From Bacteroidia bacterium (lineage in GTDB: Bacteria > Bacteroidota > Bacteroidia > JADZBD01), in NCBI GenBank assembly GCA_020852255.1, contig JADZBD010000015.1:124001-188000 (forward strand): a DNA stretch of 64,000 bases, given 5' to 3'. Each line of letters opens with the position of its first letter. Position 1 is the first letter of the stretch. Below the pieces are notes generated by a model, which made no database searches, was not told the origin of the DNA, and saw nothing but the letters and a program-made list of their open reading frames with translations. The position numbers and the translations under genes were made by a program. Of the stretch, positions 3,101-13,619 are shown piece after piece.

Positions 3101-4214
3101 CTTTCAGTGAATCTGTACCGGAGGTGTTGATGTAATTAAATGTAAGCTGTTTGGTAAGGATGGAAGTTGAAAAATCAAGATAATAATCCAGGTTGCCGAT
3201 TTGCGTGGTCCGGGAATCATAGGAATGAAAGCGTGCAGTATTCCCCGAAGCAGGAGAAGCTACTGTAAAAGCCCCGTTCACGCCACCCCATCCGGAAAAA
3301 ACGGTGGTTGTTGTATTCTGGCGCCACGATGAATTTCCACGTGAAGGCCAGGAACCCCAATTCGTAGTTGGAACATCCTGTGTGTTTGCCCAGTTCAGCC
3401 AGGCACCATCGAATGTTTGCATAACACCGAGGGCACCGTAAACAGGCGCTGCCGGCGCTGCGGGAGGAGCCCAGGTCCAGGTTTGGCCGCTGGTCGGAAC
3501 ATTTGTTGCACTATAGGTACAGGTGTTTGTATTTCCGGTGCCTGTAACTGAAGCATTCCATCCGGCTGTAACAAGCCTGTTCGAATAATCCGTGTTGTTA
3601 CCTCCGCGCAAGCCCACCTGCCCGGTGCGGTTGGCAGAGGAAGGCAAACAGTTTCCGTAGACAATGGCAACGGAATTAGTAGACTGTATGAGCTGGATCT
3701 GGAAATTCATTTGCATGACAGCATCTGTAGTGCTGGAGCGGACATCCTGGTATTGGATCACGAATACATAGTTCCCTGGCGTTCCGAGCAGTTCTGAACG
3801 GATTTCCGGTGTTCCAAGAGCCGATGCAGACAACGTTGCGCCGAAGCCGGAAATGATTCCGCACTGCCCTGACGGAACCGTGGTGGATGAGATGGGAGCT
3901 GAAACGGTTAATGCCGGAACAACCGATGGACCCCAGCCCTGCCGTTGTCCGGCCTGAGACGCACCAAACCAGATGAATCCGTTGTTTGAAATTCCGATGT
4001 CTGTATAGGTATTTCTGTCGTATGTAAAACTAAATCCCAGCGGTATGCCGGCGAATACTGCATCGGTATTTAATGCAACTCCTGTTTGGTGCACTGTACC
4101 ACCCGTAATCGCGGTGTAAGTACCTGAAGTTTCACTAAAAGTGTAACCCGAAACCTGAGACCGGCCGTTAAAAAATAATGCCAGCGAGAGCGTAAGAAAG
4201 GAAATGATTTTCAT
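102..4214 (-). CDS. Large T9SS type A sorted surface protein with P-domain, five Ig-like repeats and PKD domain
   Basis: This is a predicted secreted or surface protein of 1370 residues. An N-terminal signal peptide (about 1-19) is followed by a beta-rich region and a MAM/choice-of-anchor-J-like region (about 260-435). Residues 600-723 resemble a proprotein convertase P-domain. Five tandem Ig-like repeats of about 68 residues follow at 785-1124, each with an LGxDxxxCGG start, a DAGNPG turn, a YxWxxxATTQ core and a VTDxNGC end. A sixth, degenerate unit is at about 1125-1200. A PKD domain with WDFGDGSP lies at 1203-1275, and the T9SS type A sorting domain at about 1288-1370 (AYPNPSNGTVTF, LPNGIYTLEV). 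In this family the C-terminal domain directs export across the outer membrane. No enzymatic domain is evident, so adhesion or matrix binding is an inference. The gene is followed by a clear terminator and looks monocistronic. Confidence 0.9.
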   Translation of the reverse strand: MKIISFLTLSLALFFNGRSQVSGYTFSETSGTYTAITGGTVHQTGVALNTDAVFAGIPLGFSFTYDRNTYTDIGISNNGFIWFGASQAGQRQGWGPSVVPALTVSAPISSTTVPSGQCGIISGFGATLSASALGTPEIRSELLGTPGNYVFVIQYQDVRSSTTDAVMQMNFQIQLIQSTNSVAIVYGNCLPSSANRTGQVGLRGGNNTDYSNRLVTAGWNASVTGTGNTNTCTYSATNVPTSGQTWTWAPPAAPAAPVYGALGVMQTFDGAWLNWANTQDVPTTNWGSWPSRGNSSWRQNTTTTVFSGWGGVNGAFTVASPASGNTARFHSYDSRTTQIGNLDYYLDFSTSILTKQLTFNYINTSGTDSLKVFLSTDGGLTFGPSVSVQTIAPAWNTVIVNLGTSTSSTCVVRFSAVGDWGTTDIGLDNVIVEPVAPIDMGATMLVSPLVNGCFTSTETVTVTIRNYGTNLIDFSLLPVSVDASVTGPNPQTFTTVIVNTGTLAPNATQNVVVATGYDMSAAGTYTFSAFTTVAGDGLPANDAMAAANRVVVSVSASIPPVSPVCQGSQTNLQVNFTPSYVQPMSFTYAGLLNIPDNFLGGIDAPFTVSGVPGSYVLSSITLDTLTHTFDNDMDISILAPDASQIDLCSDNGGAGDNFYNTVFSMSAVTPVTAGVAPFSGMFLPEQSFSLLTGPLNGTWYLRLVDDLGGDVGALRRATITFTDANAGYYSIASYSWAPAAGLSSVTVANPVASPTVTTTYTVTATAVNGCTYTATVTVNVNTLPAVALGPDQSVCGGLLLDAGNPGSTYLWNTSATTQTINATATGIYSVIVTDGNGCSNTDVINLTVFPAPSLSLGPDFSQCGGSALLTASGNWASYLWSTSATTQSISVSTGGSYLCTVTDLNGCTTTDTINVTIYTPPTVTLGSNQTQCGGTVLLDAGNPGASYLWNNNATTQQITVSSSAIYSVVVTDMNGCTASASVTITIHPIPAVALGPDISQCGGTILLDAGNPGSGYQWSNAATTQQISVTASGSYSVVVTNVFGCSNSDTINITIFTPPAVTLGNDTTLCGDSLLLDAGNPGSSYVWSNSASTQQIFVSVSGTYSVIVTDVNGCSATDVIIVNISQNPVFSVNDTSICQGNSVMLIAPPGYAAYEWTDGIITSSQQFITVAPAQTTQYVITVWNGAGCFSTDTVTVTVLTVPSPSFSFNITSLNNVSFTNTSVTPPFSSVWDFGDGSPFSTLTNPNHVYASNGTYNVVLTVSNQCGSTSTFQSVVISGLGMGELNLNGMISAYPNPSNGTVTFSGKGLPEGELLIRTMDLSGRQLEIFRKRIAGGDVSQELDLSLLPNGIYTLEVFCGTARGYFTVSLQK
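843..1862 (-). repeat. Five tandem ~204-bp coding repeats (Ig-like units)
   Basis: These are five in-frame units of about 68 codons encoding Ig-like domains of the surface protein at 102-4214. The units share LGxDxxxCGG, LLDAGNPGSxYxW, ATTQxI and YSVxVTDxNGC motifs. Their similarity makes copy-number change by recombination plausible. They are coding repeats, not spacers or CRISPR units. Confidence 0.85.
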
Positions 4215-6426: not shown

Positions 6427-8493
6427 TCAGGTCATTCGTACACCTATCACCAGCACATCGTCGGTTTGTTCGAATGCGCCCTTCCATTCCGTAAACCAGG
6501 CTCTCAGTTTTTCTTCCTGTTCACGGCAGGAGAGGCGGCTGATGCCCTGAATGAATTCACGGAATTTACGGTTGGTCATTTTCTTATTGTTAGACCCCCC
6601 GAACTGGTCGGCAAAACCATCCGAAAAGATATAGACTAAATCCCCTGCACTCAGATCTACACTGTGCGTGGTAAATGGCCTCTCAGTCACCAGGGCGGTT
6701 CCCACCGGCAGTTTATCAGGCTTGATGTCGCTGAACGTTCCGTCATTTCGGAAGATCCACAGCGGATTATTCGCCCCTGCGTACTTCACCTTATTACCCG
6801 GACTGATCACGCATAGTGCGGCATCCATCCCATCGCGGCTGTCGTCTTCCGCTCCTGTTTGCTTAAGAGAATGCTTCACCTTTTCTCTGAGTCTGTTCAG
6901 TATTTGCCCCGGATCCGTTATACCATCCTCCAGCACAATCTGGTTCAGAAAAGCATTGCCTATCATACTCATAAACGCCCCGGGAACACCATGCCCCGTG
7001 CAATCCACCGCTGCAATGATCCGGTCGCCGTTTCTTTCTCCAAACCAATAGAAATCCCCACTCACTACATCGCGCGGCAGAAGCAGGACAAAGGCTTCCG
7101 GAAAAAGCCGGAATTTCATTTCCTTCTCCGGAAGAATCGCCTGCTGTATCCGCGACGCATAGGAGATACTGTCGGTTATATCCTTGTTTTTTTGAGCGAT
7201 AATCGCATTCATCTCCTGTAAGATACGATTCGATTTTTGCTTGCCCAGGTAACGCAAATAAAGAACCACTATCACCACTGCCAGTGCCGCCAGCATCAGC
7301 GCACCCGCCATGCGTGTATTTTTCACCCGTTGTTCCTCCAGTTCCTTTTCCTTGTTCAGCAGATCCTTTTCCTTTTGCACCATTTCCTTTTCAAATTCCT
7401 TCTCCGTGGCCTCCACTTTGAGTCTTTCCACGTTCACCAGAGAATCGCGGAGTTCCGTGGACAAAGTAAAATAATGCAACGCTCCTTTATAATCACCTTT
7501 CTGTTCATAGATTTTATGCGCGCTGTGGTAAAGGGAAATCAGTACATCTCCTTCCTTGAATTCACGTGCTATCTCTATTCCTTTCTTTACATATTCCTCC
7601 GCATCGTTCCAGCGCTTCAGCTGCATCAGCAATTCTGCTTTATTCTGGTAGGCAACACCCAGATTATGCAGGTATCCTTTGCTCTTACTGATCATAATAG
7701 AGGAATCCAGCATCATCATGGCTTCATTCACCTTTCCCATCTTCATCAAAGGCGTGGAAATATTGAACATTACCATAGAAACTCCTTCCCAGCTCCCCTG
7801 TGAACGGTGTAACTCCAGCGCTTCCTTAAATGTGTTATACGATCCCTGCCAGTCACCCATATACGCGTAGGTGCTGGCAATATTATTCAGGGCGGTAGAT
7901 AATTTTCTCATGTCGCCCGTGCGTTCAATAATCTCCCTGGCATCCTGGAATTCTTTCAGCGATTCCTGGTACTTCCCCAGCTTGGCATACACACCGCCCG
8001 TGCCCATAATCGGCAGCACCATGTTGTTGGTATCGTTGTACATCTGAAAAACCTTACGTGCCGCCACATAGTACTCCATGGCTTCGTTGAGTTTGCCTTC
8101 ATCGCTCCGGATGAGACCGATATTGTACCAAGCTATATATGCCGCCACGGAATCCTTATCCTGCAAATGCGTTTTGTACGCCAGCATATAATGATCGTAA
8201 GCCTTGATATTGCTTCCAACATTGCCATAGGCCGTACCGAGGTTGTTGTAAATCTTTCCCAGCAGCCGCAGGTCGGTTCCTCTCAAAGCGTAAGCCAGCG
8301 CAAGTTTTCCGTGCTGAATTGCTGTTCCGGGGTCGTTGCTCTTCAGCCGCCGGAGCAGCTCATAATGGGTTTTCATCAGCACGGTATCTACCTTGCTGTT
8401 ATTAATGATCTGCAGGAGGGAATCGGTTTTCCGGTCGGAAGCCGTGCTGGTAAAGAGCGTAAAAAGGAGCAGAAGGATCAGGGTCGGTCTCAC
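6427..8493 (-). CDS. TPR protein with transmembrane helix and SpoIIE/PP2C phosphatase domain
   Basis: This is a 688-residue regulator with a GTG start. It has a signal peptide, then a periplasmic array of about seven to eight tetratricopeptide repeats (about 25-340). A Glu/Lys-rich coiled coil precedes one transmembrane helix (about 395-415), after which comes the linker ITDSISYASRIQQAILPE. The C-terminal SpoIIE domain shows SGDFYW, AVDCTGHGVPGAFMS, GMDAAL, IFSDGFADQFGG and QTDDVLVIG, so the acidic metal ligands of active PP2C phosphatases appear intact. The likely role is to convert an envelope signal, read by the TPRs, into dephosphorylation of a cytoplasmic partner. It is the first gene of a two-gene unit with the 7TMR-DISM phosphatase 6 bp downstream. 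A TAATTTTA box lies 4 nt before the GTG. Confidence 0.9.
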   Translation of the reverse strand: MRPTLILLLLFTLFTSTASDRKTDSLLQIINNSKVDTVLMKTHYELLRRLKSNDPGTAIQHGKLALAYALRGTDLRLLGKIYNNLGTAYGNVGSNIKAYDHYMLAYKTHLQDKDSVAAYIAWYNIGLIRSDEGKLNEAMEYYVAARKVFQMYNDTNNMVLPIMGTGGVYAKLGKYQESLKEFQDAREIIERTGDMRKLSTALNNIASTYAYMGDWQGSYNTFKEALELHRSQGSWEGVSMVMFNISTPLMKMGKVNEAMMMLDSSIMISKSKGYLHNLGVAYQNKAELLMQLKRWNDAEEYVKKGIEIAREFKEGDVLISLYHSAHKIYEQKGDYKGALHYFTLSTELRDSLVNVERLKVEATEKEFEKEMVQKEKDLLNKEKELEEQRVKNTRMAGALMLAALAVVIVVLYLRYLGKQKSNRILQEMNAIIAQKNKDITDSISYASRIQQAILPEKEMKFRLFPEAFVLLLPRDVVSGDFYWFGERNGDRIIAAVDCTGHGVPGAFMSMIGNAFLNQIVLEDGITDPGQILNRLREKVKHSLKQTGAEDDSRDGMDAALCVISPGNKVKYAGANNPLWIFRNDGTFSDIKPDKLPVGTALVTERPFTTHSVDLSAGDLVYIFSDGFADQFGGSNNKKMTNRKFREFIQGISRLSCREQEEKLRAWFTEWKGAFEQTDDVLVIGVRMT

Positions 8494-8556: not shown

Positions 8557-8564
8557 GGGGGGGG
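8557..8564. repeat. G8 homopolymer in the divergent intergenic region
   Basis: A run of eight G, followed by G5 at 8576-8580, lies between the divergent TPR-SpoIIE gene and glyS. It is upstream of the predicted -33 of glyS and outside any predicted -33/-7 spacer, so a role is uncertain. Such tracts are prone to slippage. Confidence 0.5.
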
Positions 8565-10183: not shown

Positions 10184-12733
10184 TTATCGAACCAGGTGAA
10201 AATAACCTGAATAGGTTGTTGATTGCCCATCTGCGTATTCTCCGGTGAGGAGATAATAGTAAACCCCCTCAGAAGCAGGAATACCACTCGCCGTAAAACC
10301 TTCCCACTGCATCTTGTCGCCCTGAAGATGAACGACCAAATTTCCCCACCGGTTATAGATGTCACATTTCATTTCAGACATTCCGGAATTAGGAAATAAC
10401 AGAACATCATTTATCCCATCTCCGTTCGGTGTAAAAATGTTCGGGTAATATGTACCGAATACTCTTAAACATAAAGTTGTATCAACCCTACACCCAATAG
10501 TATTAAGCAAAGTAAAATCAAAACAAGCAATTCCTGTGTCCTGGGCGAAAAAGCACCAGCTACTGACTGGTGATTGGGTTAAATTAGTTAGAATATAACT
10601 GGTTGATTGTGTATTAAGGGAGTTCTGATCAATACATAACTCCTCCCCTAAATGGATGATTGAATCCGGGCTGCTCAGGGTTAAAATTGGTTGAGGGGGG
10701 GGATACGGCGTGACGGTAAAAGAAACTGGATTCGAAGGACAGTTGTTAACATCCGTCACGGACAATGTGTATGTAGTTTGGGAAGAAGGAGATGCCCAAA
10801 ATGCGTTTCCATTAGACCCTTGGGGCATCCACGTGTAAGAATACCCGGGATTACCACCCGTTGCGTTAGCTATAAACAGAACACTGTCTCCCATGCAGAT
10901 ATTTGTGTCCTGAATGGCGCTCAAAACCAATGGAAAAGGAGACATGACTTGCACGGTGTCCTTTACCATGCACCCGTTGGAATCCGTGACTGCTACAGTG
11001 TACTGTCCCGCACCCAAGCCAGTTGGAGAGGCGGTTGAAAGCGACCCCGGCATCCATACATAGCTATACGGCGGATCGCCACCACTAGGCAATACTAGTG
11101 CTGTGCCGTTACTATACATGTAACAAGAAACATTTGTGGCGTTGCTGCTCAAGGACAGTGGTGTTGCGGGTTGCGAAACCTGAAAATTAGCCGTGTCAAC
11201 ACAACCAGCTGCATCAGTTACCAGTACTGAGTAGGTGCCTGCGCAAAGGCCCGAGGAGGTGAACGTTGTGGAGCCGTTCTGCCATAAAAAAGAGTACGGT
11301 GCAGAACCACCGAAAGGATTTGCATAAGCAAACCCGTTGCAACTACCATTGCATGTAGCAGAGGCAACGATCAGATTTGATTGCAATACCGGAGGCTCTG
11401 TTAATGAGATTAGTGGCTGAATTACACAACCATTAGCATCCGTAATTGAAACGGAATAAGCTCCTGCTGGTATTCCTGATATAAAGTTAGTAGTTGCGCC
11501 AGTCGACCATAAATATGAATATGGGGGTGTACCTCCCAGAGGTGAAACAATAATACTTCCGTTTGTGCTACCATAACAAGTTGGAATGACTAACTGAGGA
11601 TTTAAAATTCCCAATCCGGTTGGGGAAGTTATTAAAACGCTATCAGTGACCTTATAATTGCATCCAGAAGCGTCAGTAACTACGATCGTGTAACTTCCCG
11701 CCGATAATCCCGTTGCCGACTGTGTTGTTTGAACAGGGTTAGTCGACCATGAATAAGAATATGGTGGAATCCCCAAGCTGGGATAAGTAGTAGCTGTCCC
11801 CGTAGCATTACCGAAACAATCTGCCGGTAAGCTATCTGTAAATGTTAGAAGTACAGGAAGGTTATTGCAATTGAGGCAACAAGTTGATCTGGAATATGCC
11901 CATTTTACTGCAGCAGAGTAACATTCTGTTGAAGACATGGTTGTGCCAAAGTGAAAGTGAAGCGGTCCGGGTTGAACATAAGATATCCTGGTTGTATCAA
12001 TTAGCGTCCACATTCCTGGAGTTGAATTAACAGTTGACCCTGGAAACACCGTTTGAAACGGATAGGTTTCAACGTCTGAAAGGATTATCCCCTGCCTTGA
12101 ATAACTGCTATTACAAGGTAGAGACAAACCTGAGAAGAATTGTGCATAAGCCCCTGGAACATTTTTCCTGATCTCCGGACCCTCTATTAATAGAAGCTCA
12201 CCATTCCAGGTTGAAATAGTTGTGTCTCTGTAAACAACTATAATGCTGGCTCCATCCATATCATTATTTGGGTCGGTCAGTATTGTCGGTAACCCGGAAA
12301 TCACATACGAACCATTGCCACAGATCACAGAAGTAATATCTGCTTTGTAAAGATATGTCCCAGAAAAACCCCAACACTTATCTGTATCGCTTCCGGTAAT
12401 ATTCAATGGAATACTGAAACTTGACAAGGCAGGATTGGTAATATTCAATGTTACAGGAACCCCATTTCCTGAGGATTGGGCATAGAAAAAGGCTCGTTCA
12501 ATGATCGCGCTCGAAGGTATTCCGGTTAAATTCATGCCCGCAGGTTGTAAAACTCCGGTTAGAGTGCCTCTTTGCGCAAGTGTTACGGAAGCAGTAGTGT
12601 ACCCAAGGCCGCACTTTTTAATGTAGAAGGCGCTGTCGGAACGAGCTGATAATGAATATGTAAAAAGAAAGGTGATGATTAAAAAGATCATTCCCTTTGA
12701 AATCAACACCTTCCCAAAATTAAACGCACTCAT
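10184..12733 (-). CDS. SprB-repeat adhesin-like protein with T9SS type B (gliding motility-associated) C-terminal domain
   Basis: This is a secreted protein of 849 residues. A hydrophobic signal segment lies at about 15-32, and a second possible start, M15, would give a cleaner signal peptide. A beta-rich N-terminal domain (about 35-290, DUF3344-like in appearance) is followed by four SprB-type repeats (about 298-370, 377-445, 450-520, 527-597). These have GGxPPYSYxW, TGLxAGxYxVxVTDxNGC and related motifs. A PKD-like segment follows. The T9SS type B domain at about 765-849 has NIFTPNGDGINDVL, IYNRWG and EGVYYYLLTG. SprB itself is the mobile surface adhesin of gliding Flavobacterium, so a role in adhesion is inferred. 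A C8 tract lies at codons 678-680. The gene is 12 bp downstream of the small T9SS gene, and both are visibly AT-richer than their neighbours. Confidence 0.9.
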   Translation of the reverse strand: MSAFNFGKVLISKGMIFLIITFLFTYSLSARSDSAFYIKKCGLGYTTASVTLAQRGTLTGVLQPAGMNLTGIPSSAIIERAFFYAQSSGNGVPVTLNITNPALSSFSIPLNITGSDTDKCWGFSGTYLYKADITSVICGNGSYVISGLPTILTDPNNDMDGASIIVVYRDTTISTWNGELLLIEGPEIRKNVPGAYAQFFSGLSLPCNSSYSRQGIILSDVETYPFQTVFPGSTVNSTPGMWTLIDTTRISYVQPGPLHFHFGTTMSSTECYSAAVKWAYSRSTCCLNCNNLPVLLTFTDSLPADCFGNATGTATTYPSLGIPPYSYSWSTNPVQTTQSATGLSAGSYTIVVTDASGCNYKVTDSVLITSPTGLGILNPQLVIPTCYGSTNGSIIVSPLGGTPPYSYLWSTGATTNFISGIPAGAYSVSITDANGCVIQPLISLTEPPVLQSNLIVASATCNGSCNGFAYANPFGGSAPYSFLWQNGSTTFTSSGLCAGTYSVLVTDAAGCVDTANFQVSQPATPLSLSSNATNVSCYMYSNGTALVLPSGGDPPYSYVWMPGSLSTASPTGLGAGQYTVAVTDSNGCMVKDTVQVMSPFPLVLSAIQDTNICMGDSVLFIANATGGNPGYSYTWMPQGSNGNAFWASPSSQTTYTLSVTDVNNCPSNPVSFTVTPYPPPQPILTLSSPDSIIHLGEELCIDQNSLNTQSTSYILTNLTQSPVSSWCFFAQDTGIACFDFTLLNTIGCRVDTTLCLRVFGTYYPNIFTPNGDGINDVLLFPNSGMSEMKCDIYNRWGNLVVHLQGDKMQWEGFTASGIPASEGVYYYLLTGEYADGQSTTYSGYFHLVR
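10695..10702 (-). repeat. C8 homopolymer inside the adhesin coding region
   Basis: Eight consecutive C on the coding strand encode Pro678-Pro680. Gain or loss of one or two bases would shift the frame ahead of the T9SS type B sorting domain. Such a product could not be secreted and anchored normally. Confidence 0.8.
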
Positions 12734-12745
12734 AAGATAAATATA

Positions 12746-13366
12746 CTACTCCTTGAGGACTTTATCAAATAACAATACTTTGTCTCCACACACCACCTGA
12801 ATGAAATATAGCCCATTGGATTGATTGCGAATATCGATAGAAACTACTCCTTCCTTTGCCGTTTGCTCTTGAATCAATTCGCCAACAGAATTGTAAACTC
12901 TAACGGATTTTAACTCGCTTGAAGCGGGCAACTTCAGGTTAAATTCTCCTCCAGAAGGGTTAGGAAAGATCGTAATTTCTGAATTCGGCTTAGTTGGTGC
13001 TTCAAGAATATCCCCAATCCTGCAGCAAGAAAGGTCCTGCCTGTAAGTTACAGTCACCGCATCTGTGGCATATCCACATGTTTGATGAGTTACTGTAACA
13101 GTATAGGTGGTTGTAGCACCCGGTGCAGCAGTTGGATTAGCGACAGTTGTACTACTTAAGCCTGTTGACGGAGACCAGCTGTAACTAAACAATGTACATG
13201 AACATCCTGTAGAACTCCCGGTTGGACTTCCGCCAATAGTTGGTGGTGCACAACATGGCATTTGAATTGTGTTTGGTCCTGCATCTGCTACAATTGTACA
13301 TTGAGCATTGACAAAGACTGCACTAAAGATTATTAGAGCAGTCAATATTAGCTTTGTGTTTTTCAT
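12746..13366 (-). CDS. Small secreted protein with PKD-like segment and T9SS type A sorting domain
   Basis: This is a 206-residue exported protein. Its signal peptide ends near VNAQ (residue 21). A cysteine-rich stretch (MPCCAPP, TGCSCTL) is followed by a PKD/Ig-like unit (WSPSTGLSSTTVANPTA, TTYTVTVTHQTC). The C-terminal T9SS type A domain starts at about residue 132 (ITIFPNPSGGEFNLKL) and ends with LYFIQVVCGDKVLL. The first half repeats a motif seen in the PKD-like part of the large T9SS protein at 102-4214. It is the first gene of an operon with the SprB-repeat protein. The function is unknown, and a surface partner of that adhesin is only a guess from context. The predicted promoter carries a G8 tract in its spacer. 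Confidence 0.85.
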   Translation of the reverse strand: MKNTKLILTALIIFSAVFVNAQCTIVADAGPNTIQMPCCAPPTIGGSPTGSSTGCSCTLFSYSWSPSTGLSSTTVANPTAAPGATTTYTVTVTHQTCGYATDAVTVTYRQDLSCCRIGDILEAPTKPNSEITIFPNPSGGEFNLKLPASSELKSVRVYNSVGELIQEQTAKEGVVSIDIRNQSNGLYFIQVVCGDKVLLFDKVLKE

Positions 13367-13438
13367 TTTTCACATATTTATGCCCTTCACAAGCCAAAAG
13401 GGATTTGGCTAAAAATTAAATGTCGCGAACATTTTTGC

Positions 13439-13471
13439 CAAACATATGAACAAGGGGGGGGCATTTCCAAA
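13439..13471 (-). promoter_or_regulatory. Predicted promoter with a G8 tract in the -33/-7 spacer
   Basis: On the minus strand the -33 element TTTG (13468-13471) and the -7 element TATGTTTG (13439-13446, an exact TAnnTTTG) are separated by 21 nt. The spacer contains a run of eight C (G8 at 13454-13461 on the plus strand). It would drive the operon 13366 to 10184 with a leader of about 65 nt. Length change in the run would alter the -33/-7 spacing directly. Confidence 0.65.
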
Positions 13472-13619
13472 AATATTTTTTGCGGAAATCCGTAGGACAA
13501 AAAATGTATAAATGAAAACGGCCGAAATTAAAGGGCCAAACGACTTCACTTAATAGAAGTTAGAAGAAAATCAATAAATGAAAAGAAGAAGAAAAATATT
13601 TTAAATTTATTTGGGTGTC

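Follow-up and report, generated by a model that had tools for sequence, protein, structure and literature searches.

In the window, by which we mean the whole stretch of 64,000 nucleotides that was analysed, a run of eight C on the minus strand lies in the likely promoter region of an operon encoding two secreted T9SS proteins, in an uncultured member of the Bacteroidota. The best-supported reading, which we hold with just short of even confidence, is that this run is a slippage-prone promoter tract, whichever of the two boxes flanking it is the true -7 element. The tract would belong to a paralogous promoter family driving small T9SS-secreted proteins and, here, also an adhesin with SprB repeats. 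Replication slippage would most likely alter the length of the tract, tract length would set the transcription of the operon, and cells would consequently differ in their amounts of two surface proteins. In the register that we slightly favour, with TATGTTTG as the presumed -7 box, the tract would be part of the -33/-7 spacer, and each C gained or lost would shift the TTTG relative to TATGTTTG in distance as well as in rotation. Eight bases are short for fast slippage, which counts against this reading. The operon and its promoter comprise the following features:

Positions 10184 to 12733, minus strand: P0002, second operon gene, 849 aa, with SprB repeats and a CHU_C T9SS type B tail.
Positions 10695 to 10702, minus strand: second C8 of the operon, inside P0002 and in frame (YPPPQP), read from the sequence.
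Positions 12746 to 13366, minus strand: P0001, first operon gene, 206 aa, with a signal peptide and a T9SS type A tail (Por_Secre_tail).
Positions 13439 to 13446, minus strand: downstream -7-type box TATGTTTG, 7.7 bits, the top -7 score in the promoter region.
Positions 13454 to 13461, minus strand: the C8 homopolymer (G8 on the plus strand), read from the sequence.
Positions 13468 to 13471, minus strand: TTTG, taken as the -33 element in the initial annotation and at the same time forming the 3' half of TATTTTTG, read from the sequence.
Positions 13468 to 13475, minus strand: upstream -7-type box TATTTTTG, a perfect TAnnTTTG, score 6.8.
Positions 13498 to 13501, minus strand: TTTG at N22 from TATTTTTG, a candidate -33 element with poor spacing, read from the sequence.

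P0001 starts at 13366, 72 nt 3' of the TATGTTTG box, and P0002 begins 12 nt after P0001. The tails and repeats of both proteins bear out the description of the operon in the initial annotation as encoding two secreted T9SS proteins, one of them of SprB type. Judging from these tails, the operon controlled by the tract promoter encodes surface proteins, their surface exposure itself being predicted. At the second C8 of the operon, each of the two alternative frames runs into a stop within 3 or 21 codons, ahead of the T9SS tail of P0002, and a slip at 10695-10702 would cost the protein that tail.

When the minus strand was re-read, positions 13471-13439 gave TTTG-GAAATG-CCCCCCCC-TTGTTCA-TATGTTTG, with a spacer of 6+8+7 = 21 nt, and the coordinates of the previously claimed TTTG-N21-TATGTTTG arrangement, with its eight-base run in the spacer, were thus exact. 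What had been overlooked is that the TTTG is the tail of TATTTTTG, so that two -7 boxes flank the C8 tract, both TATGTTTG and TATTTTTG having the TAnnTTTG form of the -7 box of sigma-ABfr promoters. The homopolymer is located between core boxes for the TTTG/TATGTTTG pair; with TATTTTTG as the -7 box, itself preceded at 22 nt by another TTTG (the pair spanning 13501-13468), it is located downstream of the promoter. The two-box motif with a spacer of N19-23 occurred 88 times genome-wide versus 86 times in the reversed control. At control frequency, a match to this motif alone carries no weight, and we discarded it as evidence on its own.

More was learned from the P0001 paralogues of the source genome. 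They are encoded at contig C12:1161-1700 (41%), contig C12:3291-4000 and contig C4:162120-162683 (38%), and their three promoters have the core of the window promoter, AATAnnTTTGGAnnTG-Cn-(tgtcc)TATTATTG, with box-to-box spacings to be compared with 21 in the window:

Contig C12, C9 at 1848-1856: TATATTTGGATTTG-C9-TGTCCTATTATTG, box-to-box spacing 20.
Contig C12, C11 at 4017-4027: TAAATTTGGAATTGT-C11-TGTCCTATTATTG, box-to-box spacing 23.
Contig C4, 161980: TAACTTTGGAATTG-CCGCCCCCC-TGCCATATTATTG, with the run interrupted, box-to-box spacing 20.

A search of the 3.28 Mb genome with the core pattern returned exactly these three paralogue sites and none in the control. The earlier placement of the tract in a promoter region is supported, and the paralogous promoters have tracts of other lengths. 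By this comparison, the C run is a retained and length-diverse element of a promoter family, interrupted in one copy; the difference in run length is one between paralogues and no proof of variation within a population. The run could also be a neutral homopolymer that arose by chance in an AT-rich intergenic stretch, the boxes being coincidental and the paralogues alike by common descent. We consider this unlikely but the most serious of the alternatives. It would fit with a two-box motif no commoner than in the control, and is opposed by a run that has been kept, at diverse lengths and between conserved flanks, in four paralogous promoters.

To assign the register, we used a -7 model trained on 297 upstream regions from about 660 kb of the source genome, in which TAnnTTTG was found 73 times upstream of genes versus 7-8 times for scrambles. 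The downstream box scored higher than the upstream one in the window (7.7 vs 6.8) and in the two contig C12 copies (C12a, 7.9 vs 5.9; C12b, 7.4 vs 5.5). This order was reversed in the contig C4 copy, where the upstream box scored 10.2 and the downstream box 5.2. In the window, the distance to the ATG favours the downstream box: it is 72 nt, at the 90th percentile of box-to-ATG distances (73), as compared with 101 nt for the upstream box, beyond the 95th, the median being 21. The -33 element is weak in the source genome: among 156 boxes, TTG preceded the -7 box at N19, N20 and N21 in 8, 10 and 5 cases, and in about 2 at other spacings. These counts agree with the usual spacing of about 19-20 nt that had been claimed. 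They lend less to the idea that the N21 of the window is a weaker state, which is speculative since 21 lies inside the tolerated range. In Flavobacterium johnsoniae, the -33 motif is not detectable (PMC7366714), and a strong dependence on spacing is thus not assured.

Since the upstream TTTG is part of a perfect -7 box in all four promoters, the tract may be at the start of the transcript and not in a spacer. In this overlapping sub-case of the main reading, which we consider unlikely, TATTTTTG would be the true -7 box, transcription would start at about 13461-13464 and the tract would be the first transcribed stretch or 5' UTR; changes in its length, or stuttering of the RNA polymerase at the C run, would then alter productive initiation or the leader. 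The perfect upstream boxes differ each time at their nn positions (TT, AT, AA and AC), as expected of a constrained -7 element, and three of the four downstream boxes are imperfect (TATTATTG). The contig C4 scores point in the same direction, as does a TTTCG kept in the paralogues 19-20 nt upstream of the upstream box. Against this, the downstream box has the higher score in three of the four promoters, TATTTTTG is preceded in the window by a single TTTG, at N22 and outside the optimum of 19-20, and the leader would be about 98 nt long for a median box-to-ATG distance of 21. A transcript starting upstream of the tract could pair TTCATATGTTTGGC (13439-13453) with GCATAAATATGTGAA (13370-13384, just 5' of the P0001 start codon), and this fold is ordinary: neither leader hairpin was notable, with z values of -1.24 and, for the TTCATATGTTTGGC/GCATAAATATGTGAA fold, -1.65. 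The tract would thus be either in the -33/-7 spacer or at the transcript start, with the spacer register slightly favoured. Of the original spacer claim, TATGTTTG stands as the box with the best -7 score, and the TTTG is at the same time the end of a second perfect -7 box.

The main reading also draws on G/C tracts elsewhere in the genome. The window contains three G/C8 tracts (at 8557, 10695 and 13454), not one, where the genome averages 0.64 in 64 kb (Poisson P ~0.03); for the window, a Markov model of order 1 gave an expectation of 2.35, and models of orders 2 and 3 about 0.3. The first of these tracts, a G8 at 8557-8564, is intergenic, with glyS (8596, plus strand) on one side and a gene at 6427-8493 (minus strand) on the other. 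Genome-wide, we counted 33 tracts, of lengths 8, 9, 10 and 11 in 16, 10, 4 and 3 cases. Runs of 5, 6 and 7 numbered 280, 30 and 11 in 464 kb, and geometric decay would give about 19, about 4 and less than 1 tracts of at least 8, 9 and 10 bases genome-wide, versus 33, 17 and 7 observed. Tracts of at least 9 bases are thus about four times commoner than run-length decay predicts, which speaks against neutral runs. Thirteen of the 33 fell in the roughly 8% of the DNA that lies between genes (P ~1e-6). Some of these intergenic tracts precede ordinary genes (glnN, an amino-acid permease and glyS), and such tracts in front of housekeeping genes are in favour of neutrality. An enrichment of tracts in T9SS genes was weak, these genes making up roughly a tenth of the genome, and was not retained.

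Several coding tracts coincided with frame junctions. Two homologous secreted proteins have a tract in the signal peptide, a G10 at contig C27:13785-13794 with the frame closed (MKITNTLFLSALLMGGG-stop) and, in the paralogue at contig C2:360571-360581, a G11 with the frame open (MKFSLSFTFAFLLLGGGGMYAQT); this pair are candidates for phase variation. At contig C25:126517-126524, a G8 splits a T9SS-tail protein, with QTNLVPNPSFEVYTAWPG in one frame and EVFQANPWYDPTGATSDYFNQC in another, and the adjacent paralogue is continuous. These homopolymer frame junctions suggest slippage in this genome, in support of the initial annotation. Switching of the slippage type thus seems to be genuine in the lineage, with tract lengths that come from the assembly, in which homopolymer errors are possible. 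We also observed that a beta-propeller (SBBP) protein has a C9 in frame in its signal peptide, right after the start codon (contig C4:147703-147711). In the same-family genome G001, a G14 (contig C49:16425-16438) is present in a lipoprotein-like gene whose frame closes soon after, and a C11 on contig C17 has a similar frame-junction appearance. More broadly, and somewhat more tentatively than for the window tract itself, we propose that this environmental lineage may use slippage as the basis of a contingency system for its secreted and T9SS surface proteins, combining tracts in -33/-7 promoters (the C8 of the window and the C9 and C11 of contig C12) with coding tracts in the signal peptide or at the N-terminus (C2:360571, C27:13785, C4:147703 and C25:126517).

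Across 395 Bacteroidia genomes, C8 upstream of TAnnTTTG gave 37 raw matches versus about 31 in the reversed control and was not enriched, and C8 downstream of TAnnTTTG gave 27 versus about 32. A poly-C next to the -7 box as a general Bacteroidia theme was ruled out by these control-level counts on both sides. The arrangement is thus at most lineage-specific, and the class-wide counts are also what a neutral run would give. The comparison with related genomes that had been proposed at the outset gave a point against the main reading, the P0001 homologues of G001, the only same-family genome found, being without a promoter C tract. The relatives searched included no second genome from the same genus. 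A glyS scan of GTDB found none closer than 80% protein identity and no orthologue of the operon beside glyS.

C runs close to -7 boxes were seen in another setting. Across Bacteroidia, glnN, the gene for type III glutamine synthetase, has C5-C9 or G5-G6 blocks in its promoter. The C5-C7 blocks precede TAnnTTTG by 7-11 nt and are often accompanied by a partner C block another 52-54 nt upstream (such pairs, with the proximal block near TAnnTTTG, were found in the glnN promoters of six relatives), and the source genome's own glnN has a C9 at contig C2:120630-120638. These blocks are probably operators, that is, a conserved nitrogen-regulator site, and their conservation implies that a C run beside a -7 box need not be a switch. 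By analogy, the tract of the window could be a fixed operator or promoter-strength element, a C-rich site bound by a regulator beside the -7 box with no slippage switch, for which the glnN blocks, often paired, and the C9 are the precedent. We regard this as improbable: the window promoter is without a partner block, the paralogues range from CCGCCCCCC to C11, beyond what an operator should vary, and the downstream genes have no relation to nitrogen metabolism. A slippage-prone promoter tract remains the best-supported reading, with the contig C4 register, the class-wide control-level C8 counts, the tract-less G001 homologues, the tracts before ordinary genes and the conserved C runs of glnN promoters as the points against it.

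To our knowledge, DNA inversion is the main route by which phase variation has been described in Bacteroidota. Invertible promoters are known from Bacteroides, and the contingency system, if true, would be an alternative to them. We found no paper in the open-access literature on homopolymer phase variation of T9SS substrates, and the proposal would name T9SS surface proteins for which heterogeneous expression from cell to cell is to be expected.

Poly-G/C contingency genes that switch out of frame occur in Campylobacter, Helicobacter and Neisseria. Other tracts of the source genome resemble these in breaking the frames of secreted proteins beside intact paralogues, whereas the tract at 13454-13461 is outside a gene. 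In Moraxella catarrhalis uspA1, a phase-variable tract is located in the 5' UTR/leader of an adhesin gene. Were the upstream box the -7 element, the window would be similar, with a homopolymer between the transcription start and the start codon of an adhesin operon, although in another organism, with another secretion route and with tract-length variation as a prediction.

The boxes themselves recall the sigma-ABfr promoters. The B. fragilis consensus has a -33 TTTG and a -7 TAnnTTTG, and is similar to the main promoter of B. thetaiotaomicron (PMC7366714). The source genome is strongly enriched for TAnnTTTG before genes, with a weak TTG at N19-20, but the consensus has no homopolymer. If control by a spacer homopolymer were true, it would mean that this -33/-7 class is tuned by box spacing, a point of interest given that some Bacteroidota have a -33 element that is difficult to detect. 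The closest likeness in the favoured register is with Neisseria meningitidis opc (also porA and fetA), in which a poly-C or poly-G lies between two promoter boxes of a surface-protein gene; expression of opc depends on the number of C, 11 versus 12 (PMC2791445, PMC3447861). The opc class has sigma-70 boxes and proven length variation, whereas the window has Bacteroidota -33/-7 boxes, a shorter run, an ambiguous register and T9SS cargo. In our best-supported reading, the window tract would work like this class of Neisseria promoters, of which it is a candidate member.
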